Assembly: GCA_006218025.1 (NCBI GenBank)
Contig: VBWA01000041.1
Coordinates: forward strand, 1 to 58,094
Source of the DNA: Rhodocyclaceae bacterium
GTDB lineage: Bacteria > Pseudomonadota > Gammaproteobacteria > Burkholderiales > Rhodocyclaceae
Direction: 5' to 3'
DNA length: 58,094 nt
A program made the translations under genes and the position numbers. Numbering within the stretch: position 1 is the first letter of the stretch; each line of letters starts with the position of its first letter. The notes beneath the pieces were generated by a model, which was given only the letters and a program-made list of their open reading frames with translations, did no database searches and was not told the DNA's origin. Positions 5,079 to 58,094 of this stretch are shown here, one piece after another.

Positions 5079-5206
5079 TCCGCAGATTCCGCAGATTGAC
5101 GCAGATGGGTCAAAGCAATGGCGGGAAAGGGCGCATCGCCCGTTCGGTGAGCCGGGTGCCCCCTCCAGCCCGTTGTTCAATCTGTGGAATCTGCGAAATC
5201 TGCGGA
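5079..5206. repeat. Intergenic long inverted repeat, copy A
   Basis: Fills the gap between rph and rdgB. The left arm (5079-5106) starts TCCGCAGATTCCGCAGATT and the right arm (5180-5206) ends AATCTGCGAAATCTGCGGA, so a long imperfect hairpin with a 73-base loop can form. Arms of the same family occur at 36563-36633 with a different loop. Similar intergenic repeats built on CGCAGATT are common in proteobacteria. It could act as an mRNA stabiliser or attenuator. Confidence 0.8.
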
Positions 5207-15940: not shown

Positions 15941-17760
15941 TCCGCTTCTTGTTCCTGCTGCTGTTCTCCCTGACCGGTCTGGCCCGTGCCGAAGAGCCTT
16001 TGGCTCCCGAAGAAGCCTTCCGCTTCTCGGCGCGCGCGATCGATGCCAGCACCATCGAGGCCCGCTGGCAGATCGCCGACGGCTATTACATGTACCGCGA
16101 CAAGTTCAAGTTCGCGCTCGAAGGCGGCACGCTTGGCGCGGCCAAGCTGCCGCCCGGCAAGATGAAGGATGACGAACTGTTCGGCAAGGTCGAGACCTAC
16201 CGCAAGGAGGTGAAGATCCTGCTGCCGGTGACGGCCGCCGGCCCTGTCACGCTGAAGGCCGTCTCGCAAGGCTGCTGGGACGGCGGCATCTGCTACCCGC
16301 CGCTCAGCCAGGAAGCGACGATCGAGCTGGCCGCAACATCCGGGCCTTCGCCGGCGACGGGCGCGCCGGTCGCCGTAGCGCCAGCGCCGGCCGAGTGGAT
16401 ACCGTCCCCGGCGCAGGCGCGCGGGGACATAACTTCTGCCAAGCCCGCCACGGCTGCGCCCGTCGACGAAAGCTCGCGCATTGCCGGGCTGTTCAAGGGC
16501 GACAATCTGGCCCTGGTGCTGGTCAGCTTTTTCGGCTTCGGCTTGCTGCTTGCGCTGACGCCCTGCGTGTTCCCGATGATCCCGATCCTGTCCGGGATCA
16601 TCGTCAATCATGGTCATGCAGTCAGTCACTTGCGCGCCTTCGTGCTCTCGCTGGCCTACGTGCTCGGCATGGCAGTCACCTATGCCCTGGTCGGCGTCGC
16701 CGCCGGACTGTCGGGCACGCTGCTTTCGGCTGCGCTGCAGAATGCCTGGGTGCTGGGCAGTTTCGCGCTGGTCTTCGTCGTGCTGTCGTTTTCGATGTTC
16801 GGCTTTTACGAACTGCAGCTGCCTGCAGCGCTGCAAAGCCGCGTCTCGGATACGGCCAACCGCCAGGGCGGCTCGCTGCCGGCCATCGCGCTGATGGGCG
16901 CGCTCTCGGCGCTGATCGTCGGCCCGTGCGTCGCCGCGCCGCTGGCCGGCGCCTTGCTGTACATCGCGCAAACCGGCAATGCGGTACTGGGCGGTGCCGC
17001 CCTGTTCGTCATGGCGCTCGGCATGGGTGCGCCCTTGCTGCTGGTGGGAGCCTTCTCCCGCTCGCTGCTGCCCAAGTCCGGACCCTGGATGGAAGGCGTC
17101 AAGAAATTCTTCGGCGTCATCATGCTGGCGACCGCCCTCTGGCTGGTTGCTCCCGTGATTCCGATGTGGCTGCAGATGCTCGGCTGGGCGCTGCTGATGG
17201 TCGTCCCGGCGATCTACCTGCATGCGCTCGACCCGCTGCCGCCGCACGCCCATGGCTTTCAGCGCCTGGGCAAGGGCCTCGGCGTCGCCCTGCTGGTCGG
17301 CGGCGCGGCGATGCTGATCGGCGTGCTCGGCGGCGCCAGGGACCCGCTGCAGCCGCTCGGCTTCCTGCGCGGCGCCACGGCCGCCGTGTCGCCAGCGCCG
17401 ACTTTCGAGCGAGTCGCGTCGGTGGAGGCTCTCGACATCCGCCTGGCCCAGGCGAAAACCGCGGGCAAACCCGTGATGCTGGATTTCTACGCCGACTGGT
17501 GCGTGAGCTGCAAGGAAATGGAGCGCTTCACCTTCGCCGATCCCAAGATTGCCCCGCGCATGCAGCAGCTTGTACTGTTGCAGGCCGACGTGACCGCCAA
17601 CAGCGCGGCCGACGCGGCGCTGCTCAAGCGCTTCGGCCTGTTCGGCCCGCCGGGCATCATCTTCTTCGATGCCGGCGGCCGCGAGATGCTCGACCTGCGC
17701 GTCGTCGGCTTCCAGCCTGCGGATAAATTTTTGCCTACCCTCGAGCGCATCCTGCGCTAA
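15934..17760 (+). CDS. dsbD: Thiol:disulfide interchange protein DsbD
   Basis: 608 residues. It carries electrons from cytoplasmic thioredoxin across the inner membrane to periplasmic DsbC/CcmG partners. Layout: signal peptide ending GLARA; periplasmic alpha domain with cysteines in GCWDGGICYPP; an eight-helix membrane core with LTPCVFPMIPIL and VGPCVAAPLAG; a C-terminal thioredoxin domain with DFYADWCVSCKEME. The linker before that last domain ([11 protein letters not shown]) is encoded by a dispersed short repeat. Confidence 0.95.
   Translation: MLIRFLFLLLFSLTGLARAEEPLAPEEAFRFSARAIDASTIEARWQIADGYYMYRDKFKFALEGGTLGAAKLPPGKMKDDELFGKVETYRKEVKILLPVTAAGPVTLKAVSQGCWDGGICYPPLSQEATIELAATSGPSPATGAPVAVAPAPAEWIPSPAQARGDITSAKPATAAPVDESSRIAGLFKGDNLALVLVSFFGFGLLLALTPCVFPMIPILSGIIVNHGHAVSHLRAFVLSLAYVLGMAVTYALVGVAAGLSGTLLSAALQNAWVLGSFALVFVVLSFSMFGFYELQLPAALQSRVSDTANRQGGSLPAIALMGALSALIVGPCVAAPLAGALLYIAQTGNAVLGGAALFVMALGMGAPLLLVGAFSRSLLPKSGPWMEGVKKFFGVIMLATALWLVAPVIPMWLQMLGWALLMVVPAIYLHALDPLPPHAHGFQRLGKGLGVALLVGGAAMLIGVLGGARDPLQPLGFLRGATAAVSPAPTFERVASVEALDIRLAQAKTAGKPVMLDFYADWCVSCKEMERFTFADPKIAPRMQQLVLLQADVTANSAADAALLKRFGLFGPPGIIFFDAGGREMLDLRVVGFQPADKFLPTLERILR
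17381..17405 (+). repeat. Short dispersed repeat, copy 3 (in dsbD)
   Basis: Contains CGTGTCGCCAGCGCCGACTT, an exact match to the core. It encodes part of the linker between the membrane core and the thioredoxin domain of DsbD. Confidence 0.75.
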
Positions 17761-17775
17761 TTTTCAGGAGTCTCC

Positions 17776-18381
17776 ATGTTCACGGGCATCATCACCGCCG
17801 TAGGAAAAATCAGCCACGTCCAGCCGCTGGAAAAGGGCGTGCGCCTCACCATCGAGGCGCCCGGCCTCAAACTCGCGGACGTCGCGCTGGGTGATTCCAT
17901 CGCGCATGGCGGCGTCTGCCTGACGGTGATCGCGAAGAAAAGGAACAGCTATCAGGTCGACGTTTCGCGCGAGACGCTGAACTGCACGGTCGGCCTCGAC
18001 ACGCAGGACGGCGAGGTGAATCTGGAAAAGGCCATGCGCCTGTCCGACTTCATCGGCGGCCACCTCGTTTCGGGTCATGTCGACGGCGTCGGCGAAGTGG
18101 AGAAGTTCGAGCCGGTCGGCGAATCGCATGAACTGGTGATCAAGGCGCCGAAGGAACTGGCGAAGTACGTCGCGCGCAAGGGTTCGATCACCGTCGACGG
18201 CGTGTCGCTGACGACCAATCGCGTGGGTGGCAAAGGCGGCCGCAGATTCTCCATCAACCTGATTCCGCACACGGTCGAGGTGACGACGCTGAAGCGCCTG
18301 CACCCGGGCGCCAGGGTGAATCTGGAGATCGACCTGATCGCGCGCTACGTCGAACGGATGCTGACGGCCGGCGCAGCGTAA
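17776..18381 (+). CDS. ribE: Riboflavin synthase alpha chain
   Basis: 201 residues. It dismutates two 6,7-dimethyl-8-ribityllumazine molecules to riboflavin. The twin lumazine-binding barrels begin MFTGIITAVGKI and MRLSDFIGGHLVSGHVDGVG, and SIAHGGVCLTV and SITVDGVSLT are the paired motifs. An AGGAG site lies ahead of the ATG. It begins the riboflavin cluster with ribBA and ribH downstream. Confidence 0.95.
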   Translation: MFTGIITAVGKISHVQPLEKGVRLTIEAPGLKLADVALGDSIAHGGVCLTVIAKKRNSYQVDVSRETLNCTVGLDTQDGEVNLEKAMRLSDFIGGHLVSGHVDGVGEVEKFEPVGESHELVIKAPKELAKYVARKGSITVDGVSLTTNRVGGKGGRRFSINLIPHTVEVTTLKRLHPGARVNLEIDLIARYVERMLTAGAA

Positions 18382-18473
18382 AATGCGCGCCTTCCCAACT
18401 TTCATGTAGCAATAGTCCGGCGCGCCCGATGATGAAACACGCGAAAGACGAATTGAAGGCCCGCCCCTCCCAT

Positions 18474-18491
18474 CCTCCCCTCACGGGGAGG
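18474..18491. other. Small perfect hairpin in the ribE-ribBA gap
   Basis: CCTCCCC and GGGGAGG pair around a four-base loop inside the 187-bp gap 18382-18568. No T run follows, so it is not a standard terminator. The gap contains no gene and no sequence resembling an FMN riboswitch. Confidence 0.4.
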
Positions 18492-18568: not shown

Positions 18569-19675
18569 ATGAGCATCAGCCCCGTTCTCGATATCGTCGC
18601 CGACATGCGTGCCGGCCGCATGGTGATCCTGGTCGACGAGGAAGACCGCGAAAACGAAGGCGACCTCGTGCTCGCCGCCGACCACGTGACGCCCGAAGCG
18701 ATCAACTTCATGGCCAGGCATGGCCGCGGCCTGATCTGCCTGACGCTGACCGAAGCCCGCTGCCGCCAGCTCGACCTGCCGCTGATGGTGCGCGACAACA
18801 AGGCGCAGCACGGCACCGCCTTCACCATGTCGATCGAGGCCGCGGAAGGCGTCACTACCGGCATCTCGGCGCAGGACCGCTCGCGCACCGTGCAGGCGGC
18901 CGTGGCGAAAAACGCCACCCCGACCGACATCGTCCAGCCCGGCCACATCTTTCCGCTGATGGCGCAGAACGGCGGCGTGCTGGTGCGCGCCGGCCACACC
19001 GAAGCCGGCTGCGACTTCGCCCAGCTCGCGGGCCTCGAGCCCGCCTCGGTGATCTGCGAAATCCTCAAGGACGACGGCACCATGGCACGGCTGCCCGACC
19101 TGCTCGAATTCGCCCGCGAGCACAGCCTCAAGATCGGCACCATCCGCGACCTGATTCACTACCGCTCGGAAACCGAAAAGCTGATCGAATGCGTTGCCGA
19201 CAAGCAGGTCGAATGCGCGCAAGGCAGCTTCCGCATGCGCGCCTTTGCCGACCGCAGCAGCGGCGACGTGCATCTGGCGCTGTCCTGCGGCGAGCTCAAG
19301 CCCGGCGAGGAAACCCTGGTGCGCGTGCATGAAGCCGTCTGCGTGCTCGACTTCCTCGACCACGGCAGCCGCGGCCATACCTACAGCGTCGATTTCGCCC
19401 TGCGCGCCATCGCGCAGCAGGGGCCCGGAGTGCTGGTGCTGCTGCATCGCGCCGAAACCGGCAACGCCTTGCTGGCGGCGCTCAAGGCCGAGCGTACCGA
19501 GCGCCCGGCCTACACCTGGGACCCGCGCATCTACGGCATCGGCGCGCAGATCCTGCGTGAAGTCGGCGTCGGCAAGATGCGCCTGATGTCGAGCCCGAGA
19601 AAGATGCCGAGCATGGCCGGCTTCGGTCTCGAAGTCACCGGCTATTTCACCCCGACGGGAGAGAAGACAGCATGA
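18569..19675 (+). CDS. ribBA: RibBA: 3,4-dihydroxy-2-butanone-4-phosphate synthase with RibA-like domain
   Basis: 368 residues. The N-terminal half is a complete RibB ([50 protein letters not shown]), which makes the four-carbon unit of riboflavin from ribulose 5-phosphate. The C-terminal half aligns with GTP cyclohydrolase II but lacks its zinc-binding cysteine cluster; [15 protein letters not shown] stands where that motif should be. Such hybrids (RibBX type) are known to lack cyclohydrolase activity, so a separate RibA is expected elsewhere. The stop shares ATGA with ribH. Confidence 0.92.
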
Positions 19676-51336: not shown

Positions 51337-52608
51337 CTAGGCGGGAAGAGGAATTCCCGGCGCCGGCCGCCCATTCCATGGCGCCACCCTGAGCAGCAGC
51401 ACCATGCCTGGCACCGCGAGCACGGCGCAGAGCAGGAAGAAGCCGAGCCAGCCCATCTGCTCCACCAGATAACCGGTGGTGGCATTCATGAAAGTCCGCG
51501 GCACGGCGGCCAAACTGGTGAATAGGGCCAGTTGCGTGGCGGTATACAAGGGATGGGTGGTGCGGGCGATGAAGGCGACGAAGGCCGCGGTGCCCAAGCC
51601 CACGCCGAGCGCCTCGAAGCCGATCACCAGGGCCAGCTGTGTCAGCTCCGCCGCGCCCACCGCAGCGCGCGGGCCCAGCCACGACAGCCAGGCGAAGCCG
51701 AAGATGGCCACCAGCTGCACCACGCCGAACAGCCACAGCGCGCGGTTGATGCCCAGCCTGACCATCCACAGCCCGCCGATCAGGCCGCCGATCACCGCCG
51801 GCCACAAACCGGCGTTCTTCGCCACCAGGCCGATCTGCGATTTGGTGAAGCCCATCTCCAGATAGAAGGGCGTCGCCAGCGCGGTGCACATCGAATCGCC
51901 CAGCTTGTAGAGGAAGATGAAGCCGAGTATCAGCAGCGCCTCCCTGAGGCCGGCGCGGGTGATGAACTCGTGGAAGGGCTCGACCACCGCATCGCGCAAG
52001 GTCCGCGGCGCGTTGCCGGCGACCGCTGGCTCGCGCGCGAACAGGGCGAGGGCCATGCCCGGCAGCATGAACAGCGCCGTAATGACAAATACCTGAAGCC
52101 AGGGCAGGCGGTCGGCCAGGATCAGGGAGAGCGAACCCGGCACCAGCCCGGCGATGCGGTAGGCATTGACATGCACCGAGTTGCCCAGCCCCAGCTCCTG
52201 CTCCGAAAGGATCTCGCGCCGGTAGGCATCGAGCGCGATGTCCTGCGTCGCCGACAGCAGGGCCACCGTGGCGGTGAGCCAGAGAATCGGCACGATCTCG
52301 CTGCCCGGCGCGAACAGGCCGAGCGAGGCGATCGCCGCCAGCAGGCCGATCTGGGTGATCAGCATCCAGCCGCGGCGCCGTCCGAGCGGCGGCGCATAGC
52401 GGTCGAGCAGCGGCGACCAGAGAAACTTCCAAGTATAGGGAAACTGGATCAGCGCGAAGAGGCCGATGGTCTTCAGATCCACGCCCTCCGAGCGCAGCCA
52501 GGCCGGCACCAGATTGAGCAGCAGATACAGCGGCAGCCCCGACGAGAAGCCGGTGAACACGCAGATCAGCATGCGCCGGGTGAACAGCGCGGCGAGCCAG
52601 GGCGGCAT
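51337..52608 (-). CDS. ampG: Muropeptide permease AmpG
   Basis: 423 residues, twelve-helix MFS member that imports anhydro-muropeptides for cell-wall recycling. Characteristic: GFSSGLPLYLLLNLVPAWLRSEGV, LFALIQFPYTWKFLWSPLLDRY, SATQDIALDAYRREIL. The start is taken as the ATG at 52608, which shares one base with the vapC stop. Confidence 0.88.
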   Translation of the reverse strand: MPPWLAALFTRRMLICVFTGFSSGLPLYLLLNLVPAWLRSEGVDLKTIGLFALIQFPYTWKFLWSPLLDRYAPPLGRRRGWMLITQIGLLAAIASLGLFAPGSEIVPILWLTATVALLSATQDIALDAYRREILSEQELGLGNSVHVNAYRIAGLVPGSLSLILADRLPWLQVFVITALFMLPGMALALFAREPAVAGNAPRTLRDAVVEPFHEFITRAGLREALLILGFIFLYKLGDSMCTALATPFYLEMGFTKSQIGLVAKNAGLWPAVIGGLIGGLWMVRLGINRALWLFGVVQLVAIFGFAWLSWLGPRAAVGAAELTQLALVIGFEALGVGLGTAAFVAFIARTTHPLYTATQLALFTSLAAVPRTFMNATTGYLVEQMGWLGFFLLCAVLAVPGMVLLLRVAPWNGRPAPGIPLPA

Positions 52609-53039
52609 CAAGTTTTCACGGGTCGTGCGTCAGCTCCCGTGGCTGAGGGAAGCACCGGGCGCAGGCCGAGATGTTCGACGAAGGGGTCGAAATCCCTGTC
52701 GCTGTACAGAAGCGGCAGACGGTTCTCGATGCAGCGCGTGGCGATCAGGGTATCGATGGTCTTGCGCACCGTAACGCCCAGCGTCCGCAACGCACGGAAG
52801 TTCCGCGCCGCCTGGATGGCCACATCCTTGCCGCCGATGTCGATCATCGTCAGCGGGGCGAGAAGTTTTTTTGCCTGGTTGAAATCACGGTCGCTGCCGA
52901 AGCCCTGCAGGACTTCGACCAGAATCAGGTCGCCGATGGCCAGCGGTTCGTTCCCCAGCAAGCCGTCGAGCACCTCACACTGGGGCGTCGGCACGCCGCG
53001 GAAATAGTCGATCCACACGCTGGAATCGACCAGAATCAA
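52608..53039 (-). CDS. vapC: PIN-domain toxin VapC
   Basis: 143 residues. PIN acidic motifs: ILVDSSVWIDYFRG, ILVEVLQGFG, TIDTLIATRC and LLYSDRDFDPF. It should cleave tRNA or rRNA and be held by VapB. It overlaps vapB by four bases (ATGA) and lies directly downstream of the integron integrase in the same direction. Confidence 0.87.
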   Translation of the reverse strand: MILVDSSVWIDYFRGVPTPQCEVLDGLLGNEPLAIGDLILVEVLQGFGSDRDFNQAKKLLAPLTMIDIGGKDVAIQAARNFRALRTLGVTVRKTIDTLIATRCIENRLPLLYSDRDFDPFVEHLGLRPVLPSATGADARPVKT

Positions 53040-53230
53040 CGATCGGCCCTCATCGCATCCAGATCGCCCTGCCAGTCGAGTTTGCCGCGAAAACGCCGAA
53101 TCTCTTCCTGCTGGCGCAAGCGCAAAAGGGTGCGCAGACCCTCTTCCACGGCTTCGCGTTTGGTCTTGAGCCCGGTTGCCCGCAGCGTGGCCTTCATCAG
53201 CTTGTCGTCAATCACGATGTTGGTTCGCAT
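53036..53230 (-). CDS. vapB: VapB-type antitoxin
   Basis: 64 residues. N-terminal DNA-binding half (MRTNIVIDDKLMKATLRATG, KTKREAVEEGLRTLL) and a C-terminal toxin-binding tail (FRGKLDWQGDLDAM). This is the common small VapB family with R-x-G-x-L-x-W. An inverted repeat operator precedes it. Confidence 0.88.
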   Translation of the reverse strand: MRTNIVIDDKLMKATLRATGLKTKREAVEEGLRTLLRLRQQEEIRRFRGKLDWQGDLDAMRADR

Positions 53231-53305: not shown

Positions 53306-54307
53306 TCAAGCCAGTCCCATCCTGTCGATGGGACTGACCACCCCTCGGCCACCCTTGTTCAGCACGTGGGTGTAGATCATTGTTGTCGACACATCGGAAT
53401 GCCCGAGCAGTTCCTGCACCGTGCGGATGTCGTAGCCGCCCTCCAGCAAGTGGGTGGCGAAGCTGTGGCGCAGGGTATGCGGTGTGGCTGGCTTGACGAC
53501 CCCGGCATCGCGTACCGCCTGTTTCATCGCCCGCTGCACCGCCTGGTCCTGCAAATGGTGGCGACGAATGCAGCCATCACGCGGATCGGTCGATAGAGCT
53601 CCGGAAGGAAACACGAACTGCCAGCGCCATTCGCGTCCGGCCCGCGGATATTTGCGCGAAAGCGCATAGGGCAGGAACACCTCGCCGCCGCCATCGGCGA
53701 CATCCCGTTCATGCAGCGCCCGCACTTTCGACAGATGCTCCTCCAGCGGTTTCGACAGCAATTCCGGCAGCATGGTGACGCGATCCTTGAAACCCTTGCC
53801 GTCGCGCACCAAAATCTCCCCGCGGGCAAACTCGATGTCCTTCACCCGCAAGCGCAGGCACTCCATGAGCCGCAACCCGGTGCCATACAACAGGCTGGCG
53901 ATCAGCCAATGCGTACCCGAAAAACGCGACAACACGGCGTGGATTTCGTCGCGGGTCAGGACCACCGGCAAGCGCCGGGGCGCCTTTGCCTGCTCCACGT
54001 TGTCGAGCCAGGGCAGTTCGTTGCCAAGCACCTCGCGATAGAGGAACAGCAAGGCACTCTTCGCCTGATTCTGCGTCGACGCCGCGACCCGGCCGACCAC
54101 CGCCAAATGCGTCAGAAAGGCCTCCACTTCGGCAGCGCCGAGATCCCGCGGATGGCGCTTGCCAAAATGCCGAATAAATCGTTTAATCCAATCGACGTAT
54201 GTCTGCTCGGTGCGCAAGCTGTAGTGCTTGAGACGAATCTTGCCCCTCACCTGATCCAGCAGACGAGGTGTTGCAGCCGCTTCCAAACGCGCCGGTATCG
54301 AGTTCAT
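53306..54307 (-). CDS. intI: Integron integrase IntI
   Basis: 333 residues, tyrosine recombinase. Catalytic residues R146 ([13 protein letters not shown]), H277 and R280 ([16 protein letters not shown]), H303 ([10 protein letters not shown]) and Y312 (MIYTHV). The IntI-specific extra helix region is present at about 214-235 ([21 protein letters not shown]). It captures and shuffles cassettes by attI x attC recombination on single-stranded attC. It is read away from the cassettes, and a LexA box lies upstream. Confidence 0.95.
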
Positions 54308-54433
54308 TTTTTAGGCCCCACTAAAAATGTCCAACTCACTGATGAATATCAGCTTAGCACATTACCTGTTTTTTTATACAGCCCACTTGATGGATAGTTT
54401 CCCATCTTGTAGGCGGCGGACTTAACGTTATGC
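54308..54433. other. attI region and joint to the first cassette
   Basis: The region between intI and the first cassette. The joint is GTTATGC at 54427-54433; cleavage in integrons falls after the G. Everything to the left is host attI. The inverted cassette gene reads into it. Confidence 0.75.
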
Positions 54434-54747
54434 GCCTCTGGCTCGTACCAGAATCGCAGCCTTGGCGGCTCATCGAAAACATGCACCACAACGCAGTCGC
54501 CGCCGTACCTGCGTTCTGCTTTCCTCAACGTCGCCCCGCTCTTTCGCGCTGTGTCAACGATCAGCAACGGGCGCAAATGTTCCGGGCATTCCGTGCCGTA
54601 GGGAATGAACGGAATCCCGAGAATGTGCGAGGCATACACGCTTGCCACCGCTCCACTTCGGCCTGGGCCAACTACAGCACGCACCTTCACGCCAAGCAAC
54701 CGCAGTCTGATCGCGCCGGAAAACTCGGCTTCGGAAACTATGCGCAT
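54349..54747 (-). CDS. Cassette 1: phosphoribosyltransferase-like protein, inverted in the cassette
   Basis: 132 residues. PRTase-like features are VVGPGRSGAVASVYAS and the PRPP-loop-like LLIVDTARKSGATLRKA. It starts at the ATG inside the R'' site (GTTATGC on this strand) of attC1; no ribosome binding site is clear. The gene points toward intI, and its frame crosses the attI/cassette joint at residue 107. The last 26 residues (from NVKSAAYKMGNYPSSG) are therefore encoded by attI DNA, including the LexA box. Activity is not established. Confidence 0.65.
   Translation of the reverse strand: MRIVSEAEFSGAIRLRLLGVKVRAVVGPGRSGAVASVYASHILGIPFIPYGTECPEHLRPLLIVDTARKSGATLRKAERRYGGDCVVVHVFDEPPRLRFWYEPEAHNVKSAAYKMGNYPSSGLYKKTGNVLS
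54366..54381. promoter_or_regulatory. LexA box upstream of intI
   Basis: CTGTTTTTTTATACAG fits the SOS consensus CTG-N10-CAG. On the minus strand it contains TATAAA, a likely -10 element for intI, about 60 bases from its start. It implies SOS-induced integrase expression, as established for other integrons. Confidence 0.85.
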
Positions 54748-54812
54748 AACATGGCGCTCAACCGGACTCCGGGCGATGAACCTGCCCGGAGCCGGTTAGC
54801 TCTACTTTGGGG
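54744..54812 (+). other. attC1
   Basis: R'' GCATAAC (54744-54750) is the exact complement of the cassette start GTTATGC. The stem CCGG(A)CTCCGGGC / GCCCGGAGCCGG keeps the extrahelical A. The R' side is TTTGGGG, with T in place of the usual G. Confidence 0.82.
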
Positions 54813-54819
54813 GTCTTAG

Positions 54820-55149
54820 ATGGAGACGCCGAAGGTCTACAAAATTCTGATGTCGTTTGACGACGCAAGCAAAATACTTGTTGCTGACGCCATAGAACAA
54901 GAAGGCTACTTTTGGCTTGTGCCCGAATGGCTCGGAAAGCACCCATCAGGACCGCGTGTACCAGAGCGAATGATTCGCCTAAATCCAAAGCACCTGAAGC
55001 TGGCACCTCCGAAGTACAAAGTGGACTACTACCTATCCGACCCACTACCAGCAATTCTCCGTGATGCACGATCAATAGAGCAAATACCGCCCGGTTTTGA
55101 GGTCCGGTTCGCAGTTCTGCAAATGGCAGAAGGCCAGATGAAACATTGA
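54820..55149 (+). CDS. Cassette 2, first gene: hypothetical protein
   Basis: 109 residues, soluble, starting 14 bases after the joint, as is common in cassettes. Sequence begins METPKVYKILMSFDDASKIL and contains EWLGKHPSGPRVPERM. No family recognised. Lower GC than the host genes. Confidence 0.65.
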   Translation: METPKVYKILMSFDDASKILVADAIEQEGYFWLVPEWLGKHPSGPRVPERMIRLNPKHLKLAPPKYKVDYYLSDPLPAILRDARSIEQIPPGFEVRFAVLQMAEGQMKH

Positions 55150-55215
55150 CGCTTTTGTTACCTTGCTCATTCATGCCACTCTCCATGTTGTACCGACCAA
55201 AGTAGGCCAAAAGTC

Positions 55216-55491
55216 ATGAAGCCAACTCGGCAAGATGTGCTGCTTTCGATCATTGCTATCGCGCTCGTCGCCATTGCAATCAAGCTGATCTTCTTTGGCC
55301 CGTCGACTAGAGGCGAGATGATTGCTATCGGAAAAATCCAAAATGCCGACGAAAAGAAGGCTGCTATTGAAAGCTTCGTAAATCGAAGCCAAGTTGTTTT
55401 TGTGCGTGGCGGTGACATTGAGGTTTCTGGATCGGTGGATGTTTCGGGCTCGTCGGTGACTGTTTCCGGGATAGTGGAAATTGAGCGCTGA
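55216..55491 (+). CDS. Cassette 2, second gene: small membrane-anchored protein
   Basis: 91 residues. One N-terminal membrane segment (LLSIIAIALVAIAIKLIFFG) followed by a soluble part ending in short valine/serine beta repeats (DIEVSGSVDVSGSSVTVSGI). No attC is seen between this and the preceding gene, so both share one cassette. Confidence 0.6.
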   Translation: MKPTRQDVLLSIIAIALVAIAIKLIFFGPSTRGEMIAIGKIQNADEKKAAIESFVNRSQVVFVRGGDIEVSGSVDVSGSSVTVSGIVEIER

Positions 55492-55505
55492 TGTAGCTTG
55501 TCGTT

Positions 55506-55862
55506 TCATTGCAGACCCCCAACCCCTCCGTCAACACGGACGCGCCGCGATGAAGCTGCGTCGCGCCGGTTACGTCGAACGTTGGGGGCTTGTGGTATGT
55601 CATTGAACAATGTCGCCAGTTCTTTCGCTACCAGCATGGCGGCGTCGTACTCGGCCTCGGTCAGTGGAACAAGTTCCGGCGATTTCGCCCGCCACGCAAG
55701 CCATTGCCCGAAGTGATTTTCCGTGCACCAGTCCCTCGCTTCGTCGGTAAAGTCCGCGAACCACGCAACGACCCTCCCGTTCACGAAGATCGCAGCCCCC
55801 AACCCTGCGGTCGACAAGGACTCCGCGCTATCAGTCTTCGGTGTTGCGTTTTCAGTGCTCAT
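55506..55862 (-). CDS. Cassette 3: hypothetical protein, inverted, reading through the joint
   Basis: 118 residues. AAGGAG lies upstream of the ATG at 55862, so it is a real gene. The core AAIFVNGRVVAWFADFTDEA and ENHFGQWLAWRAKSPELVPL match no family I know. Its first 22 or so residues lie within attC3. From residue 94 (NVRRNRRDAASSRRVRVDGG) the frame crosses the joint at 55581 and is encoded by attC2 of the previous cassette. Confidence 0.65.
   Translation of the reverse strand: MSTENATPKTDSAESLSTAGLGAAIFVNGRVVAWFADFTDEARDWCTENHFGQWLAWRAKSPELVPLTEAEYDAAMLVAKELATLFNDIPQAPNVRRNRRDAASSRRVRVDGGVGGLQ
55517..55587 (+). other. attC2
   Basis: R'' CCCCAAC (55517-55523), preceded by GAC, mirrors the cassette start TTTGGGGGTC. 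Stem CGG(A)CGCG / CGCGCCG around GATGAAGC; R' GTTGGGG at 55581-55587. Confidence 0.82.
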
Positions 55863-55919
55863 AGTTCTTCTCCTTGTTTTCCTTCGGCGGCGCGGAGCCT
55901 GTCACCTTGAACGTTAGAG
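55797..55919 (+). other. attC3 (long)
   Basis: R'' CCCCAAC (55797-55803), preceded by AGC, mirrors the cassette start GTTGGGGGCT. The stem GG(A)CTCCGCGC / GCGCGGAGCC keeps the extrahelical A. R' is GTTAGAG at 55913. The loop is long and contains the start and ribosome binding site of the inverted gene. Confidence 0.78.
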
Positions 55920-55925
55920 CACACC

Positions 55926-56207
55926 ATGATACGCAGAGCCATGCTTGGAAAAGCCGCAATTGCAGCTTGGTTTGTCTTTGCAACCTATGTCGTAATAACC
56001 ATTTATTTTGTCAATAACTTCAGTCCAAAGATTCTTGCGGAGCCAGGCACTACTACCCCTCCTTCTTGGGCCCTGAGTGTTTATGACTTTATGCGTCCGT
56101 TCTGGGCCCGAAATCAACTTATTGTTCCAGGTCTGCTTGCCATATCTGTTTCCATTACGCTTCTTTGGTACAAAAAAGCAAAGCAGTCCACAACTCTGAA
56201 TGCATGA
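55926..56207 (+). CDS. Cassette 4: small two-helix membrane protein
   Basis: 93 residues. Two hydrophobic segments (AIAAWFVFATYVVITIYFV and LIVPGLLAISVSITLLWYKK) joined by a polar loop. It starts 13 bases after the joint. Function unknown; small membrane proteins are frequent in cassette arrays. Confidence 0.65.
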   Translation: MIRRAMLGKAAIAAWFVFATYVVITIYFVNNFSPKILAEPGTTTPPSWALSVYDFMRPFWARNQLIVPGLLAISVSITLLWYKKAKQSTTLNA

Positions 56208-56240
56208 GGTTTTTCATAACTATGGGAATACCTATTTTTA

Positions 56241-56331
56241 GCTCTAACATGGCGCTCAACCCGGACGCCCGAACATCCGGCTTCACTTCGAATTGGCCGG
56301 CTCACGGGCGCCGGTTAGCTCTACGTTGGGC
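56241..56331 (+). other. attC4
   Basis: R'' GCTCTAAC (56241-56248) is the exact complement of the cassette start GTTAGAGC. The stem CGG(A)CGCCC / GGGCGCCGG has the extrahelical A. R' is the perfect consensus GTTGGGC at 56325-56331. Confidence 0.88.
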
Positions 56332-56358
56332 GTCTCAATCTCTTCACGCGAGGCACAC

Positions 56359-56940
56359 TTGACTCAGAAACTCCTACTCGTTGATTTTGAGAACGTGCAA
56401 CAGGTGGATCTTTCACGCCTGCACGACAACACAAACATCATCATCTTTGTCGGCGCAAGTCAGAAGGCTATTCCAATTGAGTTGGTAACGTCCGCTCAAC
56501 ACCTTGGCTCGCGGGTCGAATGGCAGAAGGTTGAAGGCAATGGCAGCAACGCTCTCGATTTTCACATTGCCTGTCACCTCGGTCGCGTGCTTGAAAAGTC
56601 TCCTCAAGTCCATTGCACCGTGCTGTCAAAGGACAAAGGCTTCGACCCACTCCTGCGCCAACTAAACAAGATCGGCCTCAAGTGCCAGCGCATAAACAGT
56701 TTGCTCGAACTCGACCCTAAGTCCGCGCCAGCGGATGACCCGAGTTACAAACGGGTGGTGGAAGTTCTCGGAAAGTCCGAGAAGAAGACCCGCCCTCGGA
56801 AGCTCAAGACGCTGTCGCAGCACATCTCGTCTATCTTCCAGAAGAACATCGCCCAGAAGGATATTGATCGCATCATTGATATGCTCTTCGCCAACAAGAT
56901 GATCTCCGAAACCAACAACACAATCTCGTATGCTTTCTAA
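56359..56940 (+). CDS. Cassette 5: PIN/NYN-like nuclease with C-terminal winged-helix-like domain
   Basis: 193 residues from a TTG at 56359 with GAGG five bases upstream. The PIN-like domain covers residues 4-115: LLLVDFENVQ with D9, GNGSNALDFHIACHLG with D67, and VLSKDKGFDPLLRQL with D92 and D96, the acidic set of a metal-dependent RNase. Residues 145-193 (KLKTLSQHISSIFQKNIAQK and on) resemble a winged helix. Proteins with this PIN7-like fold are often near defence genes. It may be an antiphage or stress RNase; that is inference. Confidence 0.75.
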   Translation: MTQKLLLVDFENVQQVDLSRLHDNTNIIIFVGASQKAIPIELVTSAQHLGSRVEWQKVEGNGSNALDFHIACHLGRVLEKSPQVHCTVLSKDKGFDPLLRQLNKIGLKCQRINSLLELDPKSAPADDPSYKRVVEVLGKSEKKTRPRKLKTLSQHISSIFQKNIAQKDIDRIIDMLFANKMISETNNTISYAF

Positions 56941-56995
56941 GACGCCCAACCCTGCGGTCGACCCCGTTCGCTTCGCTCTCTGGACGCTGCGCGAT
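56941..56995 (+). other. Degenerate attC5a
   Basis: GACGCCCAAC directly after the nuclease stop mirrors the cassette start GTTGGGCGTC. The left stem GG(A)CGCTGCGCG, loop ATGAAGC and first bases of the right stem (CGCGCA) are intact, then the sequence diverges. No R' follows, so the site is truncated. Confidence 0.65.
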
Positions 56996-57070
56996 GAAGC
57001 CGCGCACGCATCGTTCTCCGCCTTCATGAGTTGCTTTCGCGTAGGGCTTCGGCTTCGCTCTGTCTATGCT

Positions 57071-57097
57071 CGTCGCCGTGTCGCCAGCGCCGACTTT
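57071..57097 (+). repeat. Short dispersed repeat, copy 6
   Basis: Contains CGTGTCGCCAGCGCCGACTT exactly, preceded by GTCGC. It lies in the non-coding part of cassette 5. Confidence 0.75.
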
Positions 57098-57345
57098 CCG
57101 CGCCTGCGCAGGTTCGCGCCGCCGTTGATGTCGCGGCTTTGCCCATCGCAGCTATCCCACTGTCCGTGTTACTCAAACGGAAGGAAAAGCCAGTCAGTCT
57201 TGGCTGCGCGCCTGAGGGCGCGAAATCGTCGCGGTGTGTCGCTCATCGCCCATCGCGAAGCCCGCGCGGCGCGGACAACCGCATGAAAAACACAGTGTGC
57301 CGCCGCGTCGCTTTCTCGCGCCGTCCATTCTCGGTCGCGCGCCGT

Positions 57346-57372
57346 GGTCGCCGTCTCGCCAGCGCTGACTTT
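57346..57372 (+). repeat. Short dispersed repeat, copy 7
   Basis: CGTCTCGCCAGCGCTGACTT, two mismatches from the core, preceded by GTCGC. In the non-coding part of cassette 5. Confidence 0.7.
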
Positions 57373-57483
57373 GCTGCGTCAGTTGTTGCTTCCGTAGGCC
57401 GCGCGCTGTCTCATGCGCCGCGGTCTTTTCGCGTCTTAGGGTCAGTCGTCGCGGTCAAGTCGGGCAGCGGCATCGGCACCCAA

Positions 57484-57556
57484 GACGCCCAACCCATCGT
57501 TCCAGGGGACGCTGCGCGATGAAGCCGCGCAGCGCCCCTGAACTCAAACGTTAGCC
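57484..57556 (+). other. attC5b
   Basis: R'' GACGCCCAAC (57484-57493) again mirrors GTTGGGCGTC. The stem CAGGGG(A)CGCTGCGCG / CGCGCAGCGCCCCTG is perfect with the extrahelical A. R' is GTTAGCC at 57550-57556. Confidence 0.86.
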
Positions 57557-57573
57557 CACAGCTCGCATTCGTC

Positions 57574-58035
57574 ATGCCGTCAATCGTGCCCATCTCGTTA
57601 CGCTGTTTCGCCGTGTCGCCAGCGCCGACTTTTGGTGCCGCTTGTTCGTCTCGCTGCTCGCAGCCTCGTGGTTTCGTTGCAGCGTGGGCGGGGCGTGTTC
57701 GTCTCCCGCGTGGCTGTCGGCGCACGTCTGCCGCGTCGTGCGCGCTCGGCGTCTCGCTCGCACCGCGCTTGGGTGCCGTTCGTGCGTATCGTGGCTCGGT
57801 ACCCCCGGAGGCTTCGGGTGCGTTGGTGTCCCGTGCCTCCGGGCAGCTTCGTCGCCTGTATTGGGGCTCCTCCTTTGTGGCTGCTGCCGTCCTTGCTTGG
57901 CTCGCTCATTTCGTTTCGTGCGTGGTGTGCGTTCCGTGCTTCGCCCGCCGCTGCTGGGCTAACCCGGCGCTCAACCTCGCTCCCTTCGGTCGCTGGACGC
58001 TGCGCGATGAAGCCGCGCAGCGCCGGTTAGCTTGA
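57574..58035 (+). CDS. Cassette 6: doubtful open frame in adenine-depleted DNA
   Basis: 153 codons from an ATG 24 bases after the joint, ending inside attC6 (NPALNLAPFGRWTLRDEAA is attC sequence in translation). Its early part (AVSPAPTF) is encoded by the dispersed repeat. Two other forward frames and one reverse frame are also open. From 57661 to 57960 only about ten adenines occur on this strand, and all stop codons need A, so openness is not evidence of coding. Confidence 0.25.
   Translation: MPSIVPISLRCFAVSPAPTFGAACSSRCSQPRGFVAAWAGRVRLPRGCRRTSAASCALGVSLAPRLGAVRAYRGSVPPEASGALVSRASGQLRRLYWGSSFVAAAVLAWLAHFVSCVVCVPCFARRCWANPALNLAPFGRWTLRDEAAQRRLA
57607..57632 (+). repeat. Short dispersed repeat, copy 8
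   Basis: Contains CGTGTCGCCAGCGCCGACTT exactly. Within cassette 6, close to its start. Confidence 0.75.
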
Positions 58036-58044
58036 ACGTTGAAG
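57956..58044 (+). other. attC6
   Basis: R'' GGGCTAAC (57956-57963) is the exact complement of the cassette start GTTAGCCC. The stem GG(A)CGCTGCGCG / CGCGCAGCGCC with loop ATGAAGC is intact. R' is GTTGAAG at 58038, with G in the last consensus position. Confidence 0.86.
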
Positions 58045-58094
58045 CTGTAGAAAAACCCCTTTTTGATCAGTAAGCGATCACCCGAATGGCGCGA
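58045..58094. other. Start of the next cassette or end of the array
   Basis: The 50 bases after attC6 contain AAAAACCCCTTTTTGATCAGTAAGCGATCA, given here only in part as AAAAACCCCTTTTT, which is too little to assign. The window ends here. Confidence 0.4.

Follow-up and report, generated by a model that had tools for sequence, protein, structure and literature searches.

Positions 53306-58094 of the window, a 58,094-base-pair (bp) stretch of DNA from a Rhodocyclaceae bacterium, very probably represent the integrase end of a sedentary-type integron, whose cassette array is interrupted at position 58041 by an element related to the IS1182 family of insertion sequences. The window is the whole of contig C120 in a draft genome of 4.44 Mb (141 contigs, 99.97% complete). 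The integron itself is ordinary and of a known type; the element at a joint between cassettes and a dispersed motif of 25 nucleotides (nt) look new. The original prediction had described a chromosomal integron with an SOS-type integrase and about six cassettes. The second intI gene of the same genome, the element end at 58041-58094 and the gene-less cassettes that are not poor in guanine and cytosine (GC) are additions to it.

The integron integrase and its attC array

The distinguished features are given below; ORF denotes an open reading frame.

53306..54307, minus strand: intI, integron integrase, intact ORF of 333 amino acids (TIGR02249 profile match and tree)
54308..54427, plus strand: interval between intI and the array, putative attI by position, core GTT at 54427-54429 (position and core site only)
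54366..54381, no strand assigned: perfect LexA-type box CTGT-N8-ACAG, CTGTTTTTTTATACAG, located upstream of intI at about 58 bp from its start
54428..54806, plus strand: cassette 1, with a minus-strand ORF at 54349-54747; no family match
54742..54815, plus strand: attC1, R' core TTT instead of GTT; 78.6 bits
54807..55581, plus strand: cassette 2, with two plus-strand ORFs at 54820-55149 and 55216-55491; no family above cut-off
55515..55589, plus strand: attC2; 82.2 bits
55582..55913, plus strand: cassette 3, with a minus-strand ORF at 55506-55862; boundaries and ORFs from sequence
55795..55921, plus strand: attC3, long loop; 54.1 bits
55914..56325, plus strand: cassette 4, with a plus-strand ORF at 55926-56207; no family match
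56240..56334, plus strand: attC4; 55.4 bits
56326..57550, plus strand: cassette 5, comprising an ORF with a PIN7 domain (PF18475, 95.3 bits), a damaged attC, a gene-less stretch and attC5
56942..57034, plus strand: damaged attC in cassette 5, right half degenerate; 33.8 bits
57485..57558, plus strand: attC5; 85.4 bits
57551..58038, plus strand: cassette 6, gene-less; longest plus-strand frame without a codon-position GC signal
57955..58046, plus strand: attC6, R' core GTT at 58038-58040; 74.9 bits
58041..58094, plus strand: initial 54 bp of a multi-copy element whose 15-bp terminal repeat is GAAGCTGTAGAAAAA, cut off by the end of the contig (assigned from related copies)

IntI matched profile TIGR02249 with 485.1 bits (cut-off 265), covering profile positions 1-315 of 315. 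The relatives used for the tree, and their loci, are the best 80 of 575 confirmed IntI relatives. A rapidly computed maximum-likelihood tree of 83 proteins, from which L042 (IntI 82% identical), L006 and L007 were left out, paired the protein with the IntI of locus L041 (Shimodaira-Hasegawa-like approximate likelihood ratio test, SH-aLRT, 99), beside IntIs of Rhodocyclales and far from the outgroup, two Xer-like proteins of the same genome. Its profile score and its position on the IntI side of the tree, rather than outside the IntI clade, thus place it in the IntI family of integron integrases. The catalytic residues and the IntI-specific patch named in the original prediction were seen by eye in the translation. 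The named loci closest by IntI come from metagenome-assembled genomes of Rhodocyclaceae (L041, 87%), Gallionellaceae (L042, 82%) and Sulfuritalea (L043, 77%).

The motif CTGT-N8-ACAG upstream of intI, which we take to be a LexA site, is found unchanged and in the same place in L041. Chance matches to such a box are expected 0.37 times across the whole window, which corresponds to about 0.0008 in the 120-bp gap between intI and attI. A perfect box was identified anywhere in 13 of the 80 relatives' loci and just upstream of intI in 9 of them, the latter being a lower bound because some loci hold little sequence upstream of the gene. Judged by its promoter sequence, intI is therefore predicted to be SOS-controlled, as the original prediction had it. 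A stretch similar to the intI-array interval is present in L041 and L166.

The attC sites were searched for with a covariance model (R1) built from an alignment of 14 attC of the window's genome (A3), five of them from the window. The consensus fold has 17 pairs, and in 9 of these at least one sequence is changed on both sides with pairing kept. The search, which had been proposed with the original prediction and could have returned no sites, revealed seven attC in the window (54742-58046; 33.8-85.4 bits), all on the plus strand, with a model partly trained on the window itself; attC3 and the damaged site are outside the training set. The next three matches in the 58,094 bases scored 9.0-9.5 bits. 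As single-stranded DNA, attC1, attC2, attC4 and attC5 fold better than shuffled sequences (z -3.0 to -5.3), while the fold of attC6 is weaker (z -1.65; 12 of 200 shuffles equally good). Among the relatives, 24 of the 80 loci (224,172 bases) yielded 75 R1 matches at E <= 0.01, of which 74 are on the strand opposite to intI; the remaining one is the mirror of a site in L042. Rfam at gathering scores gave no match in the window, and RF01737, considered as an attC family, was rejected, since it is flpD.

The seven plus-strand sites close six cassettes in one orientation, which agrees with the predicted number. Each cassette start had been said to be matched by its reverse complement at its own attC; this holds (over 8-10 nt) for five of the six and fails for cassette 2, which starts with TTT and pairs with its own attC only if the first base is read as G. 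The substitution in the core between attC1 and cassette 2 (54806-54808, TTT for GTT) affects the base that precedes the crossover point, and cassettes 1 and 2 may be mobile only together. Two R'' copies (56941 and 57484) occur in cassette 5, the first one in the damaged attC.

The integron resembles the sedentary chromosomal integrons of beta- and gammaproteobacteria in its IntI, LexA-type box, array oriented opposite to intI, attC sites and mostly unknown cassette genes. It differs from them in that two intI genes occur in one genome and the array is cut by an IS1182-family element.

Element interrupting the array and its insertion sites

The GTT of attC6 is followed by GAAGCTGTAGAAAAACCCC, and the contig stops 54 bases past this GTT. 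Contig C28 likewise has this element end behind an attC at its edge, and the inverted end lies at the outer edges of contigs C24, C101 and C104, beside GTTGGGC, GTTATGC and GTTCCTG. These shared ends indicate that the assembly broke in a multi-copy element between cassettes. As the contig stops within this element, the far end of the array is not visible; the array perhaps continues past the element in C24 or C101. Elements of this kind interrupt the assembly of arrays in draft genomes, whose array lengths may consequently be underestimated.

The window holds 54 bp and one end of the element, so its affiliation is drawn from related copies, which have facing 15-bp terminal repeats. The complete transposase of locus L238 (507 amino acids) matched the IS1182 model NF033551 with 301.9 bits (cut-off 270) and contains the domains DUF772 and DDE_Tnp_1_6; DDE_Tnp_1 is among the DDE families of the related copies. 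A transposase fragment in L178 matched the same model below the cut-off (83.5 bits). The transposase occurs in both orientations.

To describe the target, 19 genomes of the genus were scanned with the 15-bp end, allowing one mismatch and making no use of attC. The scan gave 44 places (14 for the reversed control), 24 of which have exact ends. Flanks were available for 23 of these (all but G017:C77): GTT in 13, AAC in 9 and AGC in 1, so that 22 of 23 abut the integron core triplet. An attC model match ended on the repeat at 16 of 17 GTT-side ends, the match in L203 being weak (21.1 bits). Insertion specific to attC, a feature of the IS1111-attC group, is thus found for this element as well.

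Two further searches extended the sample. A search of 369 genomes of the class with the transposase fragment (E <= 1e-40) gave 8 places in 7 genomes. In 7 of the 8, a variant of the repeat was recognised past the transposase C-terminus, with AAC in front of it (assigned in part by eye). The unit that comes next in L238 resembles a HigBA cassette (named by eye), which starts GTTAGACG and is closed by CGTCTAAC. On three plasmid records of Alteromonadales, which encode transposases 43-48% identical, all five accepted ends (at most 3 mismatches, outside the transposase) are at GTT or AAC; the rows L258 1964 and 2832 (4 mismatches) and L259 2982 (3 mismatches, inside the transposase) were set aside. 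L253 (G023), with a more distant transposase, could not serve as a control because no terminal repeat was seen in it.

Sixteen facing end pairs were distinguished in 18 chosen loci. In 13 of them the copy is complete (97 to 2289 bp) and, read in one orientation, is bordered by GTT at either end; the remaining three comprise the second right end of L178, a pairing in L240 that is due to chance, and the degenerate copy of C24. Short copies devoid of a transposase (97 and 157-158 bp) were observed at cassette joints of several genomes:

L042, 884-980
L189, 5782-5939
L191, 6219-6376
L215, 1501-1657
L247, 4091-4248

All loci pooled, with at most one mismatch, comprise 58 distinct ends (26 GTT, 26 AAC and 6 other), a tally biased toward integron loci, since some of them were fetched by IntI or attC. 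This bias could suggest that the element has no special target and that its link with integrons arises from the sampling of integron loci. Such an explanation appears very improbable, as the searches by terminal repeat or transposase alone still place 22/23, 7/8 and 5/5 ends at GTT or AAC. It is no more credible that the element entered the array as a cassette through IntI. Its position between cassettes with GTT on both sides would fit such an origin, but the element carries inverted repeats at its termini, its related copies code for a DDE transposase, both orientations occur, and at its right end no attC belonging to it was seen.

A broader target would be any palindromic AACGTT or any hairpin, attC being merely the commonest. 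AACGTT is self-complementary, the transposase is found in both orientations, and the IS1182-family elements IS1272/TnSha1 are reported, in the excerpt of PMC4923244, to insert into hairpins without a primary sequence consensus and with partial deletion of the target. However, the sites CTACGTT, CCACGTT, AGACGTT and GGCGTT differ from AACGTT and yet have an attC, and no end turned up at an ordinary terminator, although no search was aimed at terminators. We consider this alternative possible but less probable than insertion directed at attC. As far as the excerpt goes, the present element shares with IS1272/TnSha1 the transposase family and hairpin-forming targets, and differs in its fixed core triplet and the intact attC alongside. 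The presence of a hairpin-inserting family at attC makes it testable whether folded, single-stranded attC is the real target.

With few exceptions the ends of the element abut GTT or AAC, and GTT borders most of the complete copies at either end; the mechanism behind this rule we infer. From known integron biology, SOS induction would lead to synthesis of IntI, which would cut folded attC bottom strands and attI and insert, excise and shuffle cassettes at G^TT. The transposase would recognise the end or the core of an attC and duplicate GTT. As the attC upstream and the start of the next cassette stay whole, such an insertion would not destroy the array, and the element may travel together with the following cassette as a single unit mobilised by IntI. 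In our evenly balanced judgement, a branch of IS1182 that reaches from this genus to Alteromonadales may be specialised for integrons, inserting at the GTT core between cassettes, duplicating GTT and leaving the neighbouring sites usable, while the element and its short forms would spread both by transposition and as passengers moved by IntI. This scheme presumes that attC, and not simply AACGTT, is what is recognised, that attC still functions after the insertion, and that the element is carried as a passenger. In both G000 C24 and G003 C91, an element end precedes a similar cassette with the start GTTGGGCGTCACC, although in G003 the right end of the element is not recognisable; this fits passenger transport, and shared descent fits equally.

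Several observations weigh against the reading of this locus as an integron interrupted by an attC-directed element. Within the array, attC1 has the core TTT, one attC is damaged, and neither attC3 nor the damaged site exceeds shuffled sequences in folding (z 0.73 and 0.17); some of the array may therefore have little activity. These defects, except for the fold of attC3, together with the gene-less cassettes and the insertion at 58041, would also suit a decaying relic with frozen cassettes that IntI no longer shuffles. We regard a relic as unlikely, given the full-length open frame of IntI, the intact LexA-type box and the well-folding attC1, attC2, attC4 and attC5. For the element, the 3-bp (GTT) duplication is deduced from the flanks of filled sites, and the inexact ends of the genus scan include chance matches, as its reversed control shows. 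One end in L206 lies at GTT without an attC match, the second right end of L178 is flanked by AGC, and no recognisable repeat was found beyond the transposase of L230 in the class search. The copies in the window's genome are ends only, or the degenerate 317-bp copy on C24, flanked by GGTCAAT on one side. No IS1182-type transposase was found in this assembly, and the genome's copies may therefore be non-autonomous or lie in unassembled sequence.

Insertion sequences that target attC are known from the IS1111-attC group, of the IS1111/IS110 type (excerpts of PMC12444791 and PMC11187229). According to these excerpts, both kinds of element are aimed at attC of integron cassettes, but the element described here differs in having a DDE-type transposase of the IS1182 family (DDE_Tnp_1_6, DUF772 and DDE_Tnp_1 instead of an IS1111/IS110-type DEDD transposase), terminal inverted repeats, insertion at the GTT core and GTT on both sides. 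It would thus constitute a second, unrelated way to target attC, via a DDE transposase. Among the titles and abstract openings of the open-access literature, no report of an IS1182 element at attC was found; in the excerpt of PMC9137128, IS1182 appears merely in a list of detected elements. As the literature searched was open-access alone, novelty is suggested rather than established.

Cassette content and other integron sequences

Only one cassette protein, the PIN7 protein of cassette 5, matched a Pfam family above the cut-off. A sequence search of PDB gave no match for this protein and nine weak ones for that of cassette 1 (E 0.13 or worse), and PADLOC assigned no family to seven window proteins. 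Assignment of the cassette 1 protein as a phosphoribosyltransferase was rejected, because the motif was seen by eye only and family searches gave no support. The longest ORFs of cassettes 1 and 3 are on the minus strand, begin inside attC and extend beyond the cassette start, that of cassette 1 into the attI interval and that of cassette 3 into the previous attC. Since the reading frames pass the cassette start, the C-termini of both putative products would depend on the neighbour.

The cassettes had been predicted to be lower in GC than the host. This is true of the gene-bearing ones (0.47-0.60, compared with 0.651 for positions 1-53305) and not of the gene-less stretches in cassettes 5 and 6 (0.647 and 0.666). 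In the longest plus-strand frames of the latter, GC by codon position is 0.68/0.63/0.64 and 0.66/0.68/0.67, which shows no codon-position signal. Apart from the repeat TCGCCAGCGCCGACTTT, these stretches had no blastn match elsewhere among the loci compared; the repeat itself was rejected as a feature of gene-less cassettes because it occurs genome-wide.

A second intI was identified on contig C21 of the same genome (429 bits; 60% identity over 321 residues to the IntI of the window). Its locus (L010 9240-13802) has an attC array of its own, which runs to the contig end. Genus-wide, intI is present in 14 of 19 genomes, five of which carry two. The integron is presumed to be chromosomal, in view of this distribution and of its location on a complete 58-kb contig of a draft genome. 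An attC match at E <= 0.001 was obtained in 18 of the 19 genus genomes (own genome included; none in G016) and in 5 of 12 others of the order.

In the fetched stretches of the window's genome, R1 revealed further attC: four on C24, three on C101, one to three each on C3, C28, C32, C51 and C60, and a weak one on C36. In one short array, on C101 (L122), attC sites are opposed, with 17714-17786 on the plus strand and 18418-18491 and 19109-19202 on the minus strand. Damaged attC whose right half is lost or degenerate, so that two cassettes are fused, were observed, besides the one at 56942-57034 of the window, in L010 (11309-11403 and 12021-12124) and in L178 (about 5140-5180), where the break is joined to a piece of an IS1182-type element.

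A VapBC-type toxin-antitoxin pair (PIN domain and VapB_antitoxin) at 52608-53230 on the minus strand adjoins the 3' end of intI.

A dispersed 25-nt motif

A 25-nt motif (consensus CGCCGTNYCRCCAGCGCCGACTYTY) is found three times in the gene-less part of the array, twice in exact form and once with two mismatches (57074, 57349 and 57609); the window has further copies at 17389 and 30772. Three copies in about 1 kb of array are a mild excess over the approximately 0.5 expected for non-coding DNA. The motif was counted in 460,357 bases of the genome, which were picked for integron pieces plus one long contig and are not a random sample. In these, 61 occurrences of the core CCAGCGCCGACT were counted over both strands (1.06 expected under a fifth-order Markov model), and the 25-nt consensus with at most 3 mismatches has 89 copies, with none for the reversed control. 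According to a simple gene finder, 50 of the 89 copies are in genes, at 0.13 per kb in genes and 0.51 outside. Each of the 19 genus genomes contains the 17-mer, in 1 to 137 copies, and none of 12 others of the order does.

The motif has sharp edges and degenerate inner positions, lies on both strands and is present in genes, features that favour an uptake sequence over a mobile repeat. Dispersed copies on both strands, as expected of uptake sequences, are evident from the above counts. On the basis of this sequence pattern, we hypothesize that it may be a putative DNA-uptake sequence, shared across the genus in a group for which the literature searches returned no report of one. Some copies of the IS1182-related element within the genus carry the 25-nt motif near their ends (L178).

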